Below are positions 49,901 through 63,363 of a stretch of DNA of 64,000 bases, one piece after another. Source of the stretch: Desulfosporosinus acididurans (GTDB lineage Bacteria; Bacillota; Desulfitobacteriia; Desulfitobacteriales; Desulfitobacteriaceae); NCBI RefSeq assembly GCF_001029285.1, contig NZ_LDZY01000001.1, positions 1 through 64,000 on the forward strand, in the 5' to 3' direction. Under the pieces are notes generated by a model. The model ran no database searches and was not told the DNA's origin. It saw nothing but the letters and a program-made list of their open reading frames with translations. Numbering within the stretch: the first letter of the stretch is position 1; every line of letters starts with the position of its first letter. The translations under genes and the position numbers were made by a program.

Positions 49901-50878
49901 TCAGAACATCTCTTTACTTATTTTGTCAATAGCTTCACTGGCACATTGATAGACACCTGGGAAAGAACTAAAATTCAAACCCTGAGTCAAATTAGGAATG
50001 AAGTACAACTTGCCGCAGTTTTTACAAGCTCTTTCAACTTCTCTGGCAACGATTTCAGGTGTCCATCCTGGGAAATCAACAACACCGCTGTCAATATCCC
50101 CCATGAAGGTAATCTGCTTGCCGTAGTTCTTGATAAGCTCAGGCGTATTGTTAGTTGTCATAACTCCTTGCCAAATATCAATTCCCATTTCAATCATAAA
50201 AGGTACGAGATTAGCCGCATAGGAATCACTATGGTGAACGATTAACTCCACTCCGTTTTGTTTGTAGAATCCATATATTTTTTTGTAAGCAGGCAGATAG
50301 AACTCCTCAAACATAGCAGGGGATATAAAGGAAGATTTTTGACTGCCCCAGTCATCATGATGGAACAGAGCATCAGGATGGAGACGGTCGATCAATACTT
50401 TGGCATAGTTCAACTCATATTCCGTCAGGTAATCAATGAGTTCATGCATAGCCTCCGGTTCTTCATATAACGCCATTAAAGCATCTTCCATGCTCATAAG
50501 ATGGTGACACATTTCAAAGACGCCTGGTGCCACAAAGGCGGTTACGAATTGATCCTTGCGGTCAACGGAACTAGCATGAGCAACAGCTGCAGCCCAAGCT
50601 TCATCCGAATTATTAATAACAGGAGCTTTAACATAGTTTCTCCACTCGGTAATATCCTTTAATACTTTGTGTTCCTCGTCATGGACTGGGAACTGTCCCA
50701 ACTGGCCTTCCGGCCATCTGAACGTAATACCCCAATCATTCTTGAACTCAGTTCCTGGTTCAGCCATAAGTTTCGAGGGAACTTCCAAGATTATCTCCAT
50801 AAACTCGTATTGATTAACAAATCGATCTGGATTTCCACCTTTAATCGTTTCCAGTAAATTTTGTCGTTTCGTTAACAT
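49901..50878 (-). CDS. UroD-family corrinoid methyltransferase
   Basis: This 325-residue TIM barrel of the uroporphyrinogen decarboxylase/MtaA/MtvB family carries HHSDSYAANLVPFMIEMGIDIWQGV and a late HxC-like zinc region (ACKNCGKLYFIPN). True HemE residues are not evident and no haem genes are near. With a corrinoid protein and MeTr upstream it fits the substrate:corrinoid methyltransferase (MtvB/OdmB type) that demethylates methoxylated aromatics or another methyl donor. The substrate is unknown. Confidence 0.88.
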   Translation of the reverse strand: MLTKRQNLLETIKGGNPDRFVNQYEFMEIILEVPSKLMAEPGTEFKNDWGITFRWPEGQLGQFPVHDEEHKVLKDITEWRNYVKAPVINNSDEAWAAAVAHASSVDRKDQFVTAFVAPGVFEMCHHLMSMEDALMALYEEPEAMHELIDYLTEYELNYAKVLIDRLHPDALFHHDDWGSQKSSFISPAMFEEFYLPAYKKIYGFYKQNGVELIVHHSDSYAANLVPFMIEMGIDIWQGVMTTNNTPELIKNYGKQITFMGDIDSGVVDFPGWTPEIVAREVERACKNCGKLYFIPNLTQGLNFSSFPGVYQCASEAIDKISKEMF

Positions 50879-50907
50879 ATGTTACCCCCCTTTTATTTTA
50901 GGTTGTC

Positions 50908-51540
50908 TTAACCTTTTACCAATTCCTGAGCTTTTACTGCTGCACTTCCTGCATCAGGTGCAAAACCATCGGCGCCAATTTCAGCAGCATATTCAGCGGT
51001 TACAGGCGCACCGCCGACAATCACCTTAAATCCGCTTAAACCGCTGTCTTTAAGTGCTTGAATAGTGCTTCTCATGGCAGTCATAGTTGTTGTAAGAAGC
51101 CCTGAGCAGGCCACCAGGGTAACATTTTCATTTTCTTTGACGGCATCGATAAATTTAGATGCTGAAACGTCTACGCCGAGGTCAACCATTTTAAAGCCGG
51201 CACTTTCAAGCATCATTTTGACAAGATTTTTACCGATATCATGGAGATCACCTTCAACAGTACCAATAACACAGGTACCTAGCGAGGAGGTGTTATCGCT
51301 TACGAGATGGGGTTTAAGGACTTCAACCCCTTTGGACATTGCTTTAGCAGCCATCAACATTTCAGGAACAAAAATATCTCCGGCGGAAAAGCGGTCACCG
51401 ACAACTCCCATCGAGTCAATCATGGCCTGTAGGATAATTTCCGCTGCGTTTCCTTCATCTAAAGCCTCTTGTATCAAACCAGGTACAATTTTAGCTTTAC
51501 CTTTCTCGACATTTGCTTTTACTTCTTCGATCTTCGACAT
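50908..51540 (-). CDS. Corrinoid (cobalamin-binding) protein of a methyltransferase system
   Basis: This 210-residue protein has a helical cap (residues 1-85) and a Rossmann-type B12 domain. The lower-ligand motif is EGDLHDIGKNLVKMMLESAG, then SGLLTTTMTAM and GGAPVT. It shuttles the methyl group between the UroD-type enzyme and the MeTr encoded on its two sides. Spacing to the UroD-type gene is 29 bases. Length and motifs match MtvC/MtaC/OdmA-type proteins. Confidence 0.95.
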   Translation of the reverse strand: MSKIEEVKANVEKGKAKIVPGLIQEALDEGNAAEIILQAMIDSMGVVGDRFSAGDIFVPEMLMAAKAMSKGVEVLKPHLVSDNTSSLGTCVIGTVEGDLHDIGKNLVKMMLESAGFKMVDLGVDVSASKFIDAVKENENVTLVACSGLLTTTMTAMRSTIQALKDSGLSGFKVIVGGAPVTAEYAAEIGADGFAPDAGSAAVKAQELVKG

Positions 51541-51574
51541 TCCGAATTCCTCCCTTATTTTTTATTCAGACTTT

Positions 51575-51612
51575 AAGGTCACCACTTCTATAAGTGGTGG
51601 TGCCGAGTTCAC
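51575..51612 (+). repeat. Solitary IS200/IS605-like right-end element, copy 6
   Basis: A different hairpin, ACCACTT/AAGTGGT, is followed by GCCGAGTTCAC. It lies between the corrinoid protein and MeTr genes inside the operon. The terminal motif matches the family, but the stem differs, so membership is less certain. Confidence 0.45.
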
Positions 51613-51618
51613 TGATTA

Positions 51619-52422
51619 TTACTTCTTAACACCAAATTTTCCTTCTCGATATGCACCAATGTATTCCATGCAATATTCGTCCATGCCCAGAAGGGCTTCT
51701 GTTGCATAGAGCATACCCATTAGATCTTTGTTCGTCGGATCAAGGATCGCACTGTCCATACCGGAACTCATCGATAAGACAATAAAGGCTTGATTAACGA
51801 GTTTTCGGACAGGGAGATTGAAGGAAATGTTGCTGGCACCACCCGTTACATGAATGTCCGGATACTGCTTCTTAATTTCTTTGATAACATCCATGATCGT
51901 AAGAATGCCATTTTCTGAAGTGCAAAGCATTTGCACTAAAGGATCTATGTGTATTCTTGAAGGAGCAATATTATACTCTTTCGCTTTCTTCATAATCTCT
52001 GCAAACACTTCCAGACGCTTTTCACCCGTCTGAGGTATCCCAGTATCGTCACACAAGAGGGCAGCGCATTCCCATTTTGTCTCAGCAATGAGAGGGAAGA
52101 CAAGTTCAATCTTGTCACCTTCCATGGATACAGAATTTATGAGGCCTGGCTTATTACAAAATTTGATAGCTTCTGCACATATACGCGCATTAGGACTGTC
52201 TATAGATATAGGGGTATCTGTAACCTCTTGCACCAAATCAATAAGCCATTTAATGGTTTCAAGTTCAAGACTGTCTTCAACAGATGCACAAACATCAATG
52301 AAATTGGCACCGGCTTCACTTTGAATTTTAGCAAGGTTTTTAATAAATTCGGCATCTTTGCCGGCAATCGCCTTAGCCACGGAAGGAATAGCGCCGTTAA
52401 TTTTTTCGCCAATAATTATCAA
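51619..52422 (-). CDS. Methyltetrahydrofolate:corrinoid methyltransferase
   Basis: This 267-residue TIM-barrel pterin-binding enzyme resembles AcsE, MtvA and OdmD. IIIGEKINGAIPSVAKAI at the N-terminus, ANFIDVCAS, SIDSPNARICAEAI and GGASNISFNLP are the pterin-binding signatures. It moves the methyl group from the corrinoid protein to THF, or the reverse. It is the first gene of MeTr-corrinoid-UroD-DUF2284-fhs. The Wood-Ljungdahl AcsE is the close alternative, but the UroD partner favours an O-demethylase type. Confidence 0.92.
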   Translation of the reverse strand: MIIIGEKINGAIPSVAKAIAGKDAEFIKNLAKIQSEAGANFIDVCASVEDSLELETIKWLIDLVQEVTDTPISIDSPNARICAEAIKFCNKPGLINSVSMEGDKIELVFPLIAETKWECAALLCDDTGIPQTGEKRLEVFAEIMKKAKEYNIAPSRIHIDPLVQMLCTSENGILTIMDVIKEIKKQYPDIHVTGGASNISFNLPVRKLVNQAFIVLSMSSGMDSAILDPTNKDLMGMLYATEALLGMDEYCMEYIGAYREGKFGVKK

Positions 52423-55557: not shown

Positions 55558-56130
55558 TTATTTCTTCTTTGACAGAAGATTACTGATAAATCCTTTGATT
55601 CCGCCTTTTTTGGGGCTTTCCCAGGCAGGCTGAACAGGTATCTGCCCTCCGTACCCTTGATTAATCATGGGATTTGGATATCCCTGGGTTGGATAACCTT
55701 GGGGCGGATAACCTTGGGGTTGATAACCTTGTGGTTGATACCCTTGTGGTTGATACCCTTGGGATTGCGGCATCATTGGTTGCTGGAGCGCCTGATTTTG
55801 CTGGAAACCTTGCGGCGGATAACCGGGAGCAGCGTACCCCTGCCCTCCAGCTTGTGGACCAGGACCCCAATTTGCATTTCCTCCCATCATCCCGCCTGGC
55901 ATAGTTCCAGCCTGACCGCCTCCAAAGTTATTTGTTGGCTGGGAAAATCCTGGTGGCATAAGCAAACCACCCGGAAGCCCGAACTTAGGTGCAAATCTTT
56001 GCAGTCCTCGGCCTAATAATGGTGTCCGGTCAAATTGCCCTGAACCATTCGGCATTTGGTAGCCTTGAGTTCCTTGAGGCATCATTTGGACTTGTTGATT
56101 CCCAAATATATTCATTTTACCTAACGGCAT
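55558..56130 (-). CDS. Pro/Gln/Gly/Tyr repeat protein, YqfQ/VrrA-like
   Basis: The 190-residue protein has a central low-complexity region, including five or more tandem QGYQP/QGYPP units (about residues 125-150), encoded by 15-bp DNA repeats that can slip. The N-terminal RGLQRFAPKFGLPGGLL and basic amphipathic tail KGGIKGFISNLLSKKK recall Bacillus YqfQ/VrrA proteins linked to sporulation. That similarity is by pattern only. No signal peptide. GAGGGTG lies ten bases before the ATG. Confidence 0.65.
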   Translation of the reverse strand: MPLGKMNIFGNQQVQMMPQGTQGYQMPNGSGQFDRTPLLGRGLQRFAPKFGLPGGLLMPPGFSQPTNNFGGGQAGTMPGGMMGGNANWGPGPQAGGQGYAAPGYPPQGFQQNQALQQPMMPQSQGYQPQGYQPQGYQPQGYPPQGYPTQGYPNPMINQGYGGQIPVQPAWESPKKGGIKGFISNLLSKKK

Positions 56131-56314: not shown

Positions 56315-57838
56315 TCAACTGTTAGCTAACTTTCTTAATATATCTCTTTGCTGTCTATAGCGATTTCGATAGATTGTTGAATTGCTGCAATTTGGACTAT
56401 ATCGATTAGATATTTTTATGTTCTTAACAAGTGTCGTTGGCAAGTCCTCGATCGTTCCTGTCGCATAAGCCGCAATTAGACAATTTGTCAGTACGGCTCC
56501 ACCATAAATTTCCAACGTAATAGCTTCACTTTGCATAACATCGGCCTTAATCTGATTCCACAGATTATCTCTGCTCCCGCCCTCTGTAATAGTTATTCTG
56601 TTAATATCAATCCCGGCATTTCTGTAAGTATCTGTAATTTCCATGTAATCATAAGCAATTGCCTCTAAGACAGCTCGCCATAAAACAAATTGGTCCGTAT
56701 CTAAATTCATGTTTAAAAAACAACCTTTAATATTAGCCCATTCACCGTATCCGCCGGTTAAGTATGGTAGAAACATCACCTCATTACATCCAGGCGGAAT
56801 TTTTTCCGCTTTTTGGCTTAGCGATTGATAATATTTATCATCTTCAGCCTTTTGACAAAGATTATCCTTAAACCAGCGCAAGGCTAAACCTCCGGTTCTA
56901 ACAAATCCCCAATAAAAATAGGTATCTTTCAATGTTCCGCTATTAAAAATCAAACCGCTTCCTTTTTTACTTAATTCCGGGATTATTCCAGTGGTAGAAA
57001 CACAGAACATAGCACATGTTCCTGCCACATCAACAGCCTTATTCGCTTCAATAATTCCGCTTCCTAACATGGACTGCATTGTATCTCCTGCTCCGGCACA
57101 AATCGGGATACCTGCTGGACATCCAGTTTCTTGTGCTGCCTCTTCCGATAAGGCACCAATAATATCCCAAGGTTTTACAATCTTCGGCAGATATGCTTTA
57201 TCAATCTTTAAAAGAGCTAATTGTTCATCGGACCATTCTTTATCATAAATTCGGTAACCAAGACCCCAGCCCGACATTGTTCCCCAATCAATAAAAGCAT
57301 CACGGCTGTCTAAACCGGCCAAATTCATAAGAATGTAAGGAGCATTGTGGACAAACTTTCTGCCCCTTTCTTGAAACGCTTTATTATTAGCCAACAGCCA
57401 CCTGGCATGCAAAGCAGGAAACATGCAAGATGGTTCAGCATTGCCTGTCTCTTTGCCCCAAATATCCAGATCCAATTGATTTAAAGCTTCTACATCGCTT
57501 TGAGTCCTAGAATCCAAATAATTAATGTAAGGAGTAATCGCCTTCCCTCTCTCGTCAACCCCAACAATTCCACAAATAATTCCGTCACCCATAATGGCTT
57601 TAATTAGACTAGGATCAATGCCCTCAGTTTGCAATTGCTCAATACATTGTTTAATTCCCAATTTAGTCAAGGATAGGTATTCATCAGCATCCATATCCAC
57701 CCATCCCGGCTGGGGGCAGCTCATCGTTGTCTGATTGGATGCTTTTGCGACACAGTGCATAGTTTCAGTATAAACAGCCACTTTTACGCTTTGTGATCCT
57801 GCATCAAAACTAAGATAGCAGCTTTCCAAAGTATACAT
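56315..57838 (-). CDS. FGGY-family carbohydrate kinase under FMN riboswitch control
   Basis: This ~507-residue kinase has the two actin-like FGGY domains. LSFDAGSQSVKVAVY is the phosphate-1 loop, GIVGVDERGKAITPYINYLDSRT the substrate region, GAGDTMQSMLGSG and VDVAGTCAMF the FGGY signature area, and GGSRDNLWNQIKADVM the adenosine loop. It phosphorylates a sugar, polyol or similar group with ATP; the substrate is unknown. The only gene behind a complete FMN riboswitch, it may act on a flavin, ribityl or ribitol-type compound. AGGAG touches the ATG at 57838, so a TTG nine bases later (57829) may be the true start. Confidence 0.88.
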   Translation of the reverse strand: MYTLESCYLSFDAGSQSVKVAVYTETMHCVAKASNQTTMSCPQPGWVDMDADEYLSLTKLGIKQCIEQLQTEGIDPSLIKAIMGDGIICGIVGVDERGKAITPYINYLDSRTQSDVEALNQLDLDIWGKETGNAEPSCMFPALHARWLLANNKAFQERGRKFVHNAPYILMNLAGLDSRDAFIDWGTMSGWGLGYRIYDKEWSDEQLALLKIDKAYLPKIVKPWDIIGALSEEAAQETGCPAGIPICAGAGDTMQSMLGSGIIEANKAVDVAGTCAMFCVSTTGIIPELSKKGSGLIFNSGTLKDTYFYWGFVRTGGLALRWFKDNLCQKAEDDKYYQSLSQKAEKIPPGCNEVMFLPYLTGGYGEWANIKGCFLNMNLDTDQFVLWRAVLEAIAYDYMEITDTYRNAGIDINRITITEGGSRDNLWNQIKADVMQSEAITLEIYGGAVLTNCLIAAYATGTIEDLPTTLVKNIKISNRYSPNCSNSTIYRNRYRQQRDILRKLANS

Positions 57839-57861
57839 CTCCTTTAATGTTTATGAACGAT

Positions 57862-57897
57862 AATAAAAAATTCTCTTAAGCATCCTTAAGAGAATTT
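57862..57897 (-). terminator. Riboswitch terminator ahead of the FGGY kinase gene
   Basis: The perfect 12-bp stem AATTCTCTTAAG/CTTAAGAGAATT with loop of four is followed on the minus strand by TTTTTTA. It lies between the FMN aptamer and the start codon, 25 bases before the gene, which is the usual place for a transcription-off platform. Confidence 0.88.
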
Positions 57898-57940
57898 GAC
57901 AAGACAAACTTAATACATAATAGCGATTATGTATATGAAC

Positions 57941-58050
57941 ATCACCTTCTCTCATCCAGACTATACTGTCGGCTTCGGAATTCAACCGAATCTGCTTTAC
58001 GGCTCGCGGGCTTTACCGCCGATAGGGAATTTCACCCAACCCTGAAGGAT
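57941..58050 (-). ncRNA. FMN riboswitch (RFN element)
   Basis: The minus strand shows the RFN core in order: AGGGTTGGGTGAAATTCCC, CGGCGGTAAAGCCCGCGAGCC, then a variable stem, GGTTGAATTCCGAAGCCGACAG and GTCTGGATGAGAGAAGG. P1 closes by ATCCTTC with GAAGGTGAT. All conserved junction blocks are present. High FMN should favour the downstream terminator and shut off the FGGY kinase gene. A second hairpin ATACATAAT/ATTATGTAT (57913-57934) lies in the platform. Confidence 0.95.
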
Positions 58051-58070
58051 AATTATATTAACTTATTAAT

Positions 58071-58099
58071 AAAGTAACACCATTGCTTCACTTTGTCAA
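58071..58099 (-). promoter_or_regulatory. Promoter of the FMN riboswitch transcript
   Basis: Minus-strand TTGACA (58094-58099), 17 bases and TACTTT (58071-58076). The -35 begins right after the stop codon of the upstream gene, and the riboswitch starts about 20 bases after the -10. The riboswitch unit is thus independently transcribed. Confidence 0.7.
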
Positions 58100-58100
58100 T

Positions 58101-58829
58101 TTAAGCCAATTCCCCAGATATCAGATCTTTTAAGCGCTCAGTACCTAAAGAAAGCAATTGAAAACCAAATTTCATTAACTGAACATCATCATGCCTTATC
58201 TCTTCAAATCGTTCCACAGTTACATCCATTTTTTCGAGCAAGGAAGTATTATGCCTTAAATAACTTTTGAAGTTATCCAAATCGTAACAAGCTAAGAAGA
58301 ATAACTTAATCATCTTATTATCAATTTCAAGCTCACCTGTAAGTTTTAAATAACTAGGGATTTGACTAAACCCTTGTTCCATTTCTTCGTAAATTTCTAA
58401 CCCCTGGTCAGAAATCCACTCTTTAATAGTTTGGCTTTTTTTCTCATTCAACCCATGGCAACGGGAAGATTCAAAAATAAAGGAGTATTTTCCTCCCCCC
58501 AGCATGTCCACCGGCGCAATACGGCAAGACCAGGGCCGTTCTTTATAAACCCTACACCCTTTTGGGGTAATGAAAGGACATGTTAAATTATCCTCCTCAG
58601 ACATCTTAATCTGAACTATAGAAAAACCGGTGGGCAATTGCACGTTTAGAGTGTATTTATCCAGGAATTCTTCTGAAGAAATGCCGAGCAAATTTTTCAT
58701 TCTGAGGACATCATAAGGTGTAAGATAAATATTAATGTCGCGGCAGCATTTTTTAAAACAATCGAGACCGTCATGACAAAGAAAATTAAACTCACTGTCC
58801 TCATTCAAAACTAACTTTCGCTGATCCAT
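58101..58829 (-). CDS. YkgJ-family Cys-cluster protein
   Basis: This 242-residue protein has the YkgJ (UPF0153) pattern: FLCHDGLDCFKKCCRDINIYLTPYDVLRM at the N-terminus, then CPFITPKGCRVYKERPWSCRIAPVDM. The eight or so Cys likely bind Zn2+ or Fe. The role of the family is unknown. The C-terminal ~120 residues are helical with no motif. It lies 46 bases past the C39-like gene on the same strand and may be co-transcribed. Confidence 0.82.
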   Translation of the reverse strand: MDQRKLVLNEDSEFNFLCHDGLDCFKKCCRDINIYLTPYDVLRMKNLLGISSEEFLDKYTLNVQLPTGFSIVQIKMSEEDNLTCPFITPKGCRVYKERPWSCRIAPVDMLGGGKYSFIFESSRCHGLNEKKSQTIKEWISDQGLEIYEEMEQGFSQIPSYLKLTGELEIDNKMIKLFFLACYDLDNFKSYLRHNTSLLEKMDVTVERFEEIRHDDVQLMKFGFQLLSLGTERLKDLISGELA

Positions 58830-59609: not shown

Positions 59610-60566
59610 TTAGAGTTTTTCTAGAAAAGCCACACGCCTGGCACCCAAATAGCGTGAAGCCCAGTAAGAATTCGTTATATTATCAAAACAAACGCCGTAT
59701 GCCTCAGAATCAATCATCATATTGTTTCCAATATAAATCCCTACATGAGATGCACCAGCTTCATAAGTGCTGAAGAAAAGGAGATCACCGGGTTTTAGAT
59801 CCGTTTCGGGAATTCCTATGCCCTCCTTAAACTGATCTTGAGACACGCGATTTAATTTAACTCCAAAATGCCCATATACATACTGAACAAATCCTGAACA
59901 ATCAAAACCGGGACTTGGAGTAGTTCCGCCCCAAACATAAGGCGTTCCCAAATATTGTTCAGCGTAGGCTAAGATAGACTGAAAATTATAAGGAATAGAC
60001 ACTAACTGCTTGTTTTTGCTATTTAAAAGATCAGCGTCAGCAGCATCACTTGGATTTATGCCGTCCGCACGCCCGGCTGCAGCTAATGAGGTTTCTAAGG
60101 ATTGTTCTTGAGCCAATTCATCGATATTGGATTGTACTTCTAATGAAGAAAGTATTGTTGTTTTCTCTTGAGAATTCACTTGAGCAAGAAGATTTTGCTG
60201 GGTAGATAAGAGCTGTTGCTGTGTTTGTTGTAATTTCTTTTTATCTTCAAGCGAGGCCTTTACTGAAGCCATTTTCTCACTGATTAAGGACTGCTTCTTA
60301 GTAATATTGGTATTGGCAATTGAAATCTCCTGATTCAAGTCTTTAAAATCGTCAATAATATAAGAGACATATTCCCAGCGATCAAGAAAGTCTGACATAC
60401 TCGTGGATTGAAATAACACTTTCATATATGGAAGATAACCCACTTCTTCATTTCCACTTTGATAAAAAGTATTTAGGATATCTCCCAATTTATCACTATC
60501 GTCTTGATGTTGCTTTTGAAGCTGAATTTCCTGCGTTTGCAAATCCTTAAGTTGTTTTTGTTGGCT
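59610..60566 (-). pseudogene. NlpC/P60 peptidoglycan hydrolase, 3' part (interrupted by IS21-family element)
   Basis: This part encodes the end of a coiled-coil segment (QQKQLKDLQTQEIQLQKQHQDD onward) and the whole NlpC/P60 domain: YVWGGTTPSPGFDCSGFVQYVYGHFG with the catalytic Cys, then GDLLFF, SHVGIYIGNNMMIDS with the catalytic His. Such proteins cut peptide cross-links in the wall. The open frame extends 90 bases into the IS and could start there, but that leader is IS sequence. Removing the IS and one TGGCT copy rejoins the frame exactly as ...ALES-QQKQL.... The restored protein would have 429 residues. Confidence 0.92.
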
Positions 60567-60728
60567 TGTGAATGGTAAACTAAACCATACACATTTACGC
60601 CAATGAAAGCATACAGGTTTCTGCCACAAAGCATACAACTTTTTGCCAACAACCATACAACTTAAATCAAATACAGCGATCGGACTTTGTTAGAATAGTG
60701 ACTAGCAAAGAGGTCAGGAGCTGTTAGA

Positions 60729-62240
60729 ATGAAAGGATTTAAGATGTATAAACAGATACAACAACTTAAAGAGATTGGATTCACTCGGTCTCGGACAGCC
60801 AAGCAGCTGAACATAAATCGAGAAACTGTAACACGGTATTGGAACATGACAGCGGATGAATTCGCCAAGCAGCTGTATAGCATTAACCGGGAACTGTTAC
60901 TTTCAAACTATGAGGAAATTATCATCAACTGGTTGAAACAATATCCAACAATGACAGCCGCCCAAGTATGCGATTGGCTCAAGGAGCATTACAAAGAGGA
61001 TATCAAGGAACGAACTGTCAGTCGTTATGTCAAAGGGTTACGAGAGGAATATAATCTGAAAAAATCCAATCATCCCAGGGATTATGAGGCTGTAGAAGAG
61101 CTCCCAATGGGGCAGCAGTTACAGGTGGACTTTGGTGAAAAGTGGATGCAATCCATTGATGGGCAGCGTGTAAAGATTCGCTTTGCAGCCTTTGTACTCG
61201 CTCACGCACGTTACAAATGGGCATTCTTTCAAACTCGGCCATTCACAACAAGCGATCTGGTTTCAAGCTGTCATGAGTGCTTTAGATATATAGGTGGGAT
61301 GCCGCTAGAAGTGGTATTTGATCAGGATAGTATCGTCAGTGTATCGGAAAACTATGGAGATATTATTCATACCTTTGAGTTTGAGAAGTTCCGGCAAGAA
61401 TGCAATTTAAAAGTATACCTCTGCCGCGCAGCTGATCCGGAAAGCAAGGGTAAGATCGAGAATGTGGTTAAATTCATCAAGTATAATTTCCTTGAAAACA
61501 GACTTTTTGCGGATGAGGAAGTTCTCAACAGTTCGTTCCTAAAATGGCTGGATAGAACCGGTAATGCGAAAATTCACGGCACTACCAAAAAGATACCCGC
61601 CAAGGTGTTTGAAGATGAACGTGAACACTTAAGGCCCCTGCTAGACATCCGATCAAACAGTGATGTAACCATCTACAGAAACGTTCGGAAAGATAACACG
61701 ATCGTCTACGACAGCAATCGGTACTCTTTACCTCTTGGTACATACAACAATCAAAAAGAGGTCAGCATTGAAGCGAAGAGTGAAAAATTGACGATTATGA
61801 CCGTATTCGGTGAATTTATCTGTGAACATCCCATCGCAACCGGCAGAGGTCAATTAATTAAGAGCACCAGTCATACCAGAGATACTACAGACTCGATGGA
61901 TAAAGCTCAAACTACTGTTGATGAGTTGTTATTATTCAAGGCAACCGATTTTCTGCAGACAATTCGAACAGAAAAAGCGCGTTATGCCCGTGATCAGTTC
62001 CGGTTGCTGCAAACATTATGCGATAACTATGGGATTGATGACGTACTCAATGCCATCAAATATTGTGAGGTGAGCAAACTCTTCGGAATAACGTATGTAA
62101 AGGATTTTTTAGAGCATAGTGCCAAACCAAAGCAAGTCATCGTCCTCAATACTATTCCGGTTAGCAACAACAAGTACCATGTAACCACTGAGAAACGCTC
62201 TCTGGATGTGTATGCAAAGGCAGGTAGCAGCCATGAATGA
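60729..62240 (+). CDS. istA: IS21-family transposase IstA
   Basis: This 503-residue DDE transposase has N-terminal helix-turn-helix parts ([27 protein letters not shown]). The integrase core carries Asp134 ([10 protein letters not shown]), a second Asp ([12 protein letters not shown]) and the Glu in [24 protein letters not shown] lies eight bases before the ATG. It overlaps istB by eight bases and works with that ATPase. Confidence 0.95.
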
Positions 62241-62970
62241 ACGGATTGAACGTGTCAATGCATTGGTGTCAGGGCTGCATTTGGCCCCTGTTGATTTAGA
62301 AAACCTTTATGCTAAAAAGAATAATCTCACACCTCTCGAAAGCGTTGAGGTTTTCCTTTCGGAGCAACAACGTCTTCGGACGGAAAAGCAAAATCTAATT
62401 CGCAGAAGAAGAGCAAATCTACCGGCCGAAAAAACCCTGGAAACCTTCGACTTCGGATTCCAACGCAGCGTATCCAAGGAACAGATGCTAAGGTTGTCCG
62501 ATATGACTTGGGTTGAGCAAGCGTTTAACATTTGTTTCCTGGGACCACCTGGTATTGGGAAAACGCATCTGGCCTTGTCCTTAGCGGTACAGGCTTTAAA
62601 CCTAGGTTATGCCGTAGCTTTTACGACCTTGGATGAACTCATAATTACACTAAAAACCTCGCAAATCTCGACCGCCAGTAAGAGACGAATAAAAATACTC
62701 AACTCGGCATCACTGGTTATTATTGATGAAGTTGGCTTCATGCCACTTTCTACAATAGAAGCCAATTTGTTCTTCGGTTTCGTGTCTTCAATGTCCGAGA
62801 AAACATCACTCATCATTACCTCAAACAAAGGATTCGATGAATGGGCTGACTTTTTAGGGGATGCCACCATTACAACTGCGATTTTAGACCGACTTATACA
62901 CCACTGCGAGATTTTAAACATGACGGGAAACAGCTACAGACTCCAACATAGGAAGACTATTACACAGTAA
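62233..62970 (+). CDS. istB: IS21-family ATPase helper IstB
   Basis: This 245-residue AAA+ ATPase is DnaC-like. It has Walker [12 protein letters not shown], Walker [12 protein letters not shown] and sensor [13 protein letters not shown]. It loads the transposase on target DNA. The start I use (MNERIERVN) overlaps the end of istA by eight bases with a ribosome site CAGGTAG; a frame start nine codons upstream lies inside istA. Confidence 0.95.
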
Positions 62971-63025
62971 CAAAATGTTGTATGGTTTGTGGCGAAAAGT
63001 TGCTGGTTTTACTTGACTGCTTACA

Positions 63026-63363
63026 TGGCTCTCTAAAGCAGATTGATCATTGGTAATTCCCTCATTTATGGTTTGCAGAGATTGCTGCAATGATAAAATT
63101 TTCATATCAAGGGCAAGCTCCTGTTCTGTCTGATTACTGAACTGGCTATTTAGTTTTAATTCTTGTTCAGCGAATTGCTGCAATTCATTAGCGTCGTTCT
63201 TGTTTGGGGTTTCCTTTGCGGAATTACTTTGAGTCTGTAAATTTGTTAATTGTGAACTTGTCGGAGCATTTGTTTGTGTTTGGGCTTGGGCTTGCACCTG
63301 TAAAGGCAGACAAAAAATACATGCCATACAAATAAAAATTAATACTTTAAATTTATTATTCAT
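63026..63363 (-). pseudogene. NlpC/P60 peptidoglycan hydrolase, 5' part (interrupted by IS21-family element)
   Basis: This holds the signal peptide (residues 1-25, FKVLIFICMACIFCLPLQVQA) and the start of the coiled coil (LQQFAEQELKLNSQFSN ... ALDMKILSLQQSLQTINEGITNDQSALES). The frame runs on into the IS and stops there. It is the N-terminal part of the gene at 59610. Secreted P60 proteins with this coil-plus-NlpC layout occur in many Firmicutes. Confidence 0.92.

Follow-up and report, generated by a model that had tools for sequence, protein, structure and literature searches.

The FMN riboswitch (RFN element) is known to control genes of riboflavin synthesis and riboflavin transport. In this pathway, RibB normally converts ribulose 5-phosphate to DHBP, a phosphorylated four-carbon methyl ketone, with loss of formate. 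Lumazine synthase (RibH) needs this product. Among the FGGY kinases, LsrK acts on an AI-2-like methyl ketone.

RibB belongs to the signature by which gut bacteria are scored for vitamin B2 prototrophy (PMC6593275), and RibBA-type fusions that have lost one of their activities are known from Arabidopsis (PMC3509567). For Sinorhizobium and Brucella, an alternative to RibB is posed as an explicit open question (PMC9478397). Five specificity positions of FGGY kinases were defined by Zhang et al. 2011, and the substrates sit deep inside a cleft, which shuts around them (PMC3245297). Among the matches listed from the open-licence PMC literature, no RFN-controlled FGGY kinase and no link between such a kinase and RibB was found; 'FMN riboswitch' and 'xylulokinase' both occur in PMC7051946, in unrelated sections.

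The locus described here lies in a window of 64,000 nucleotides, the whole stretch of Desulfosporosinus acididurans DNA that was analysed. It combines a canonical FMN riboswitch with an FGGY-family kinase gene.

The riboswitch and the kinase behind it

The aptamer was found at 58053-57940 on the minus strand (Rfam RF00050, 114.2 bits, E 7.4e-26). The score exceeded the gathering score of 66.2 bits, the full model (1-138) was covered, and this was the sole Rfam match at the gathering threshold within the 64-kb window. An intrinsic terminator with a 13-bp stem, followed by T-rich DNA, lies at 57897-57868 (minus strand). The terminator scan of this stretch gave two terminator-like sites, with 0.2 expected from shuffling; the second one is on the plus strand within the aptamer. 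The 47-base stretch holding the terminator hairpin has a fold energy of -14.7 kcal/mol.

The 3' side of the P1 closing helix with its adjoining bases (UGAGAGAA, 57942..57954, minus strand, from the RF00050 match and the sequence) is able to pair, by eye, with UUCUCUUA of the terminator 5' arm. Competition between P1 and an antiterminator could represent the usual OFF-switch layout, a switching direction that we infer. When a partial transcript up to the terminator 5' arm was folded, UGAGAGAA paired with another partner in the minimum-energy fold.

A promoter-like site, found by eye on the minus strand, consists of TTGACA (58099-58094), a 17-bp spacer and TACTTT (58076-58071). It is absent from the list of the promoter scan because its -10 box agrees with TATAAT at 3/6 positions only, and it is a plausible, not a proven, promoter of the RFN and the kinase. 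The upstream gene (58101-58829) stops before this site. The FGGY-family kinase is encoded at 56315-57838 (minus strand, 507 aa as listed), and 184 bases separate the kinase stop from the following ORF on that strand (55558-56130). The original prediction of a complete RFN with terminator standing ahead of a lone FGGY kinase is thus borne out, and we consider this regulatory arrangement, read from the sequence, to be firm. Its claim of a dedicated promoter stands as far as the boxes themselves go, and the scan does not back it.

Elsewhere in the window, two further features were seen. An NlpC/P60 cell-wall hydrolase gene (59610-63363) is apparently split, by eye, by an IS21-like istA/istB pair (60729-62970), and a corrinoid methyltransferase trio (49901-52422) comprises URO-D type, B12-binding and pterin-binding proteins according to Pfam. 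The window's own genome has four RFNs in all. One of the others (locus L003, 378-1445) stands before the gene of an EamA-family transporter that may carry riboflavin.

Both Pfam domains of the kinase, FGGY_N (120.7 bits) and FGGY_C (61.5 bits), were above the gathering threshold. Translation probably begins at the TTG at 57829 (residue 4), which would give 504 aa, because the AAAGGAG directly abuts the listed ATG and the ATG of the C. magnum orthologue aligns to residue 4. The AlphaFold2 model has a mean pLDDT of 90.5. Among the 50 matches listed, it matched glycerol, xylulose and other FGGY kinases over the whole length (Z 33.9-43.9, rmsd 2.4-4.0, 16-24% identity). The FGGY fold is therefore confidently predicted, and the fold leaves the substrate unsettled.

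At the five specificity positions, the kinase carries I88, C89, M139, D252 and M277 (ICMDM). In an alignment of 51 kinase sequences (the frameshifted L049 and the partial L051 were left out), the catalytic Asp252, equivalent to D245 of GlpK, was present in 51/51 rows. M139 was found in 49/51 rows and each of the other four positions was invariant. Another set of 19 sequences, 11 of which came from genomes represented in the alignment, had ICMDM in 16 cases; the other three, which belong to the order of Anaerostipes sp. 992a (Lachnospirales), had ILMDM. None of the eight E. coli FGGY kinases compared has ICMDM.

The best-scoring NCBIfam model was xylulokinase (TIGR01312) with 197.6 bits, and glycerol kinase (TIGR01311) reached 135.3 bits. 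These scores are far under the respective cut-offs of 380 and 590 bits. Together with the differing specificity residues, they argue against a kinase for a common sugar, the outcome that was named beforehand as fatal to a flavin link. The xylulokinase score can also be taken to mean a pentulose kinase that boosts the supply of ribulose 5-phosphate to RibB. We consider this very unlikely given the missed cut-off and the signature of E. coli XylB, which is MHGDV; besides, such an enzyme would be of no use where RibB is dead or absent, a state described below for many kinase genomes.

Distribution of the kinase and its RFN elements

In a collection with one genome per species, a pattern scan found 52 orthologous kinase loci with 59-92% identity, a sample biased to close relatives. 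According to Rfam scans of all 52 loci, the kinase is immediately preceded by a same-strand RFN in 26, and the other 26 have no RFN before the kinase. Homologues thus repeatedly carry the element, as had been proposed for a search of other genomes. The RFN-kinase loci include Desulfosporosinus, Clostridium, Anaerostipes, Anaerobutyricum, Frisingicoccus, Coprococcus and Megasphaera, with Lachnospiraceae among them. A hairpin search found a terminator between RFN and kinase start in 21 of the 26.

The kinase is sporadic. At E 1e-100, the window's own genome and one congener were the two positives among the 100 genomes around it, and the Anaerostipes order had 5 in 295 genomes. No relative was found in viral contigs. 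Every match in the plasmid collection was below 60% identity, with 26.7-27.8% among the ten matches listed. The kinase tree requires no fewer than 11 switches between presence and absence of the RFN. A genome-wide Rfam survey (L051, L054 and G008 left out) found no RFN in 11/11 Sutterellaceae-type kinase genomes.

No conserved neighbours of the kinase were found across the 52 loci, so the substrate cannot be named from gene context. In Pelosinus (L011), the gene of an ECF S component (PF07155) lies just upstream of the kinase; it was rejected as evidence of riboflavin import because its best solved relative (4hzu_S) has no name more specific than predicted membrane protein, and the NCBIfam model that fits it best is a hypothetical family, below the cut-off. 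In genome G207 of the Anaerostipes order (L214, 506-6585), the kinase orthologue is part of an operon-like run that looks catabolic, whose other genes encode a membrane protein, an SDR dehydrogenase, a SorC/DeoR-type regulator and glycerol kinase.

The other RFNs of the kinase genomes were covered in 60 stretches, several of which were kinase loci themselves; about eight were left out. These RFNs stand before ribD operons, RibBA genes, ECF S components and MATE-type transporters (named by eye), and one stands before an S component and a flavokinase fusion. The MATE-type genes right behind RFNs were seen in Frisingicoccus and Coprococcus (L078, 393-1766, and L087). The fusion belongs to the Lachnospiraceae genome S29M_St_21 (L065, 387-1745, contig G110:C51), where the RFN is followed by an ECF S component and then by a fusion of a stand-alone flavokinase domain with an OmpR-type winged helix. 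This protein is possibly a flavin-sensing regulator.

RibB in kinase genomes and in controls

Flavokinase, RibB and RibH were counted in 50 kinase genomes (those of L051, L053 and L054 left out). The flavokinase domain PF01687 was present in 48 of them; G115 and G121, where it was not found, are metagenome assemblies. In the window kinase itself, no Pfam match to PF01687 was found at E 0.001. A replacement of the flavokinase by the kinase was rejected on the 48/50 count.

The RibB domain (PF00926) showed a different picture. It was at full strength in 25 genomes (273-312 bits), weak in 12 (189-223 bits) and missing in 13, where 12 genomes had no match and Anaerostipes sp. 992a (G108) had a 36-residue scrap; the completeness of these assemblies is mostly not stated. 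RibH was present in 46 of the 50 genomes: 24/25 with intact RibB, 12/12 with weak RibB and 10/13 with RibB missing. Hence, RibB is dead or absent in 22 of 46 RibH-positive kinase genomes. No RibH match was found in G121, G125, G131 and G142, nor in two further kinase genomes, G147 (Sutterellaceae-type family) and G207.

The 12 weak domains appear catalytically ruined. None of the 12 retains Arg37, Asp42, Cys67, His153 or Glu174 (E. coli numbering), and Glu38 is kept in nine, Thr107 in five, His136 in four and Glu40 in three. All 25 intact domains keep every one of these residues. The RibA half of the 12 proteins retains its R.HSEC..CDC motif in all cases. Experimental loss of activity is cited for Ala mutants of Glu39, Glu41 and His154 in V. 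cholerae (PMC5228156), positions which are taken as E. coli 38, 40 and 153.

Selective loss of RibB was also visible in riboflavin operons. A Synergistales operon (L204) reads ribD-ribE-ribA (220 aa)-ribH, with RibB alone gone. The operon of Anaerostipes sp. 992a (L200) has ribD, ribE, a 296-aa protein with a non-matching N-terminal stretch and RibA as its only Pfam domain, and ribH. RibH without a RibB match was found in Dakarella massiliensis, Mesosutterella multiformis, M. porci and Duodenibacillus massiliensis. The window's own genome has an intact RibB.

Two ribB remnants were noticed in passing. The fourth RFN of the window's genome (G000:C25:7272-7702, L216/L059) precedes a ribB in decay, which has lost a large internal part and changes frame; an intact RibBA is encoded elsewhere. 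Anaerostipes sp. 992a has a second short ribB scrap away from its riboflavin operon (L215, G108:C5:75456-75563).

These counts bear on the substrates originally named. A non-orthologous riboflavin kinase, or a kinase for another ribityl compound, would agree with FMN riboswitch control. We regard it as highly improbable: PF01687 is already there in nearly all kinase genomes, the loss of RibB would be left unexplained, and FGGY substrates are bound deep in a closing cleft (PMC3245297). What accompanies the kinase in the genomes is RibB loss, and neither a riboflavin kinase nor a ribitol kinase would make up for it, so that reading is unsupported.

Two sets of controls were used. In the order of Anaerostipes (295 genomes), RibH was found in 134 genomes and RibB in 135. 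Among 130 RibH-positive genomes without the kinase, 129 had RibB: 128 at full length with at least 272 bits, and G352 with a gene truncated where its contig stops. The single exception (G377) has its RibH at the very last bases of a contig. The five kinase-positive genomes comprise three with strong RibB, G108 with its scrap, and G207 with neither RibB nor RibH. G352 and G416 were considered as cases of damaged RibB in kinase-negative genomes and rejected, both being at contig ends.

In the Sutterellaceae-type family (that of G123), 59 of 67 genomes were RibH-positive, with gene pieces at contig ends scored as present. Among those with the kinase, 17 lacked RibB and 13 had it; among those without the kinase, five lacked RibB and 24 had it (Fisher p 0.003, uncorrected for relatedness). 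The five are G464, G448, G450, G454 and G457. The absence in G464 may be due to a contig end, as its RibH contig has 3,598 bases.

A quick kinase tree (51 rows, 47 with a RibB state) showed at least five changes of RibB state, gain and loss not being distinguished. All 12 dead RibB domains fall into one clade and therefore count as one event. The Synergistales kinase sits on a long branch. Taken together, the sequence comparisons strongly suggest that the kinase replaces or supplements RibB, from several separate lineages.

Several observations count against a replacement of RibB. An intact RibB is kept by 25/50 kinase genomes, 5/29 kinase-negative RibH-positive genomes of the Sutterellaceae-type family have no RibB match, and FMN control and RibB loss are not coincident in Sutterellaceae-type genomes. 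As the latter have no RFN, the lineages with the most RibB absence are not under FMN-riboswitch control. Two of the 12 loci with dead RibB (L022 and L032) also have no RFN before the kinase. The first and third observations, the catabolic-looking context in G207 and the patchy RFN on the kinase tree would also fit an FMN-responsive or other role outside flavin synthesis, with RibB loss as a coincidental decay towards auxotrophy. This is rather unlikely in our view. The RibA motif, ribD, ribE and ribH persist in RibB-dead operons, and decay of RibB only is absent from the 130 kinase-negative RibH-positive controls in the order of Anaerostipes.

A proposed route to DHBP and its relation to known systems

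On balance, the kinase probably by-passes RibB, with ATP + 3,4-dihydroxy-2-butanone -> DHBP as the simplest chemistry; substrate and product are what we infer. At low FMN, transcription would run through the RFN into the kinase gene. With FMN bound, the terminator would form and the kinase would be shut off, the OFF direction being presumed. The kinase, once made, would phosphorylate 3,4-dihydroxy-2-butanone with ATP to give DHBP. In the window's genome, it would act as a supplement or salvage enzyme because RibB is intact there. The residues binding glycerol in GlpK (R83, E84, Y135 and F270) correspond to I, C, M and M in the window kinase, and Ile, Cys and Met in place of Arg, Glu and Tyr would favour a methyl ketone over a polyhydroxy sugar.

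The 3,4-dihydroxy-2-butanone might be made from pyruvate and glycolaldehyde by a thiamine-diphosphate enzyme. In one Negativicutes genome (L040, 1979-5846), the kinase ATG lies 11 bases past the genes of the large and small subunits of acetolactate synthase. Acetolactate synthase is a TPP carboligase. This context is a single case, and the genome keeps RibB. A precedent for the kinase is given by XylB, which phosphorylates 1-deoxy-D-xylulose; pyruvate dehydrogenase can form 1-deoxyxylulose from pyruvate and glyceraldehyde (PMC3424233). More tentatively, we propose a RibB-independent riboflavin route in gut and sediment anaerobes, possible rather than probable as a whole: a thiamine-diphosphate enzyme (e.g. 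acetolactate synthase, as in L040) would make the dihydroxybutanone from pyruvate and glycolaldehyde, the FGGY kinase (RFN-controlled in many Bacillota) would convert it to DHBP, and RibB would be freed for repeated loss.

The same co-occurrence with RibB loss would be expected if the kinase formed another phosphorylated compound (a deoxyketose, a tetrulose or an AI-2-like pentanedione) from which a second enzyme makes DHBP. LsrK, a related FGGY kinase, matched the fold of the model with Z 39. This scheme is unlikely, though it deserves some weight: it needs a second missing gene, and none is conserved beside the kinase. With direct formation of DHBP as the preferred reading, the broad 'flavin precursor' of the original prediction is retained and most likely narrowed to the four-carbon DHBP branch, and its riboflavin and ribitol options are dropped.

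If the kinase supplies DHBP, it is a candidate gene for the missing class of RibB alternatives, and it would add a specificity to the FGGY kinases and a member to the RFN regulon. If true, the predicted B2 phenotypes would change for Anaerobutyricum hallii, an Anaerostipes and several Sutterellaceae. The idea is open to a clean genetic test.

Compared with known systems, the locus shares the canonical aptamer and the terminator with the FMN riboswitch regulon. RibB and the kinase would share DHBP as their product, and RibB genes, like the kinase, stand behind RFNs in other kinase genomes. They differ in Pfam family and in chemistry: RibB rearranges ribulose 5-phosphate with loss of formate, whereas the kinase would phosphorylate. 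The missing RibB alternative of Sinorhizobium and Brucella poses the same question of a DHBP source besides RibB (PMC9478397), although these are Alphaproteobacteria, unlike the kinase lineages here. XylB, GlpK and LsrK share the two actin-like domains and the catalytic Asp with the window kinase, and the XylB substrate 1-deoxyxylulose is the five-carbon analogue of the proposed four-carbon substrate. Besides its ICMDM signature and its low NCBIfam scores, the FMN riboswitch upstream sets the window kinase apart.
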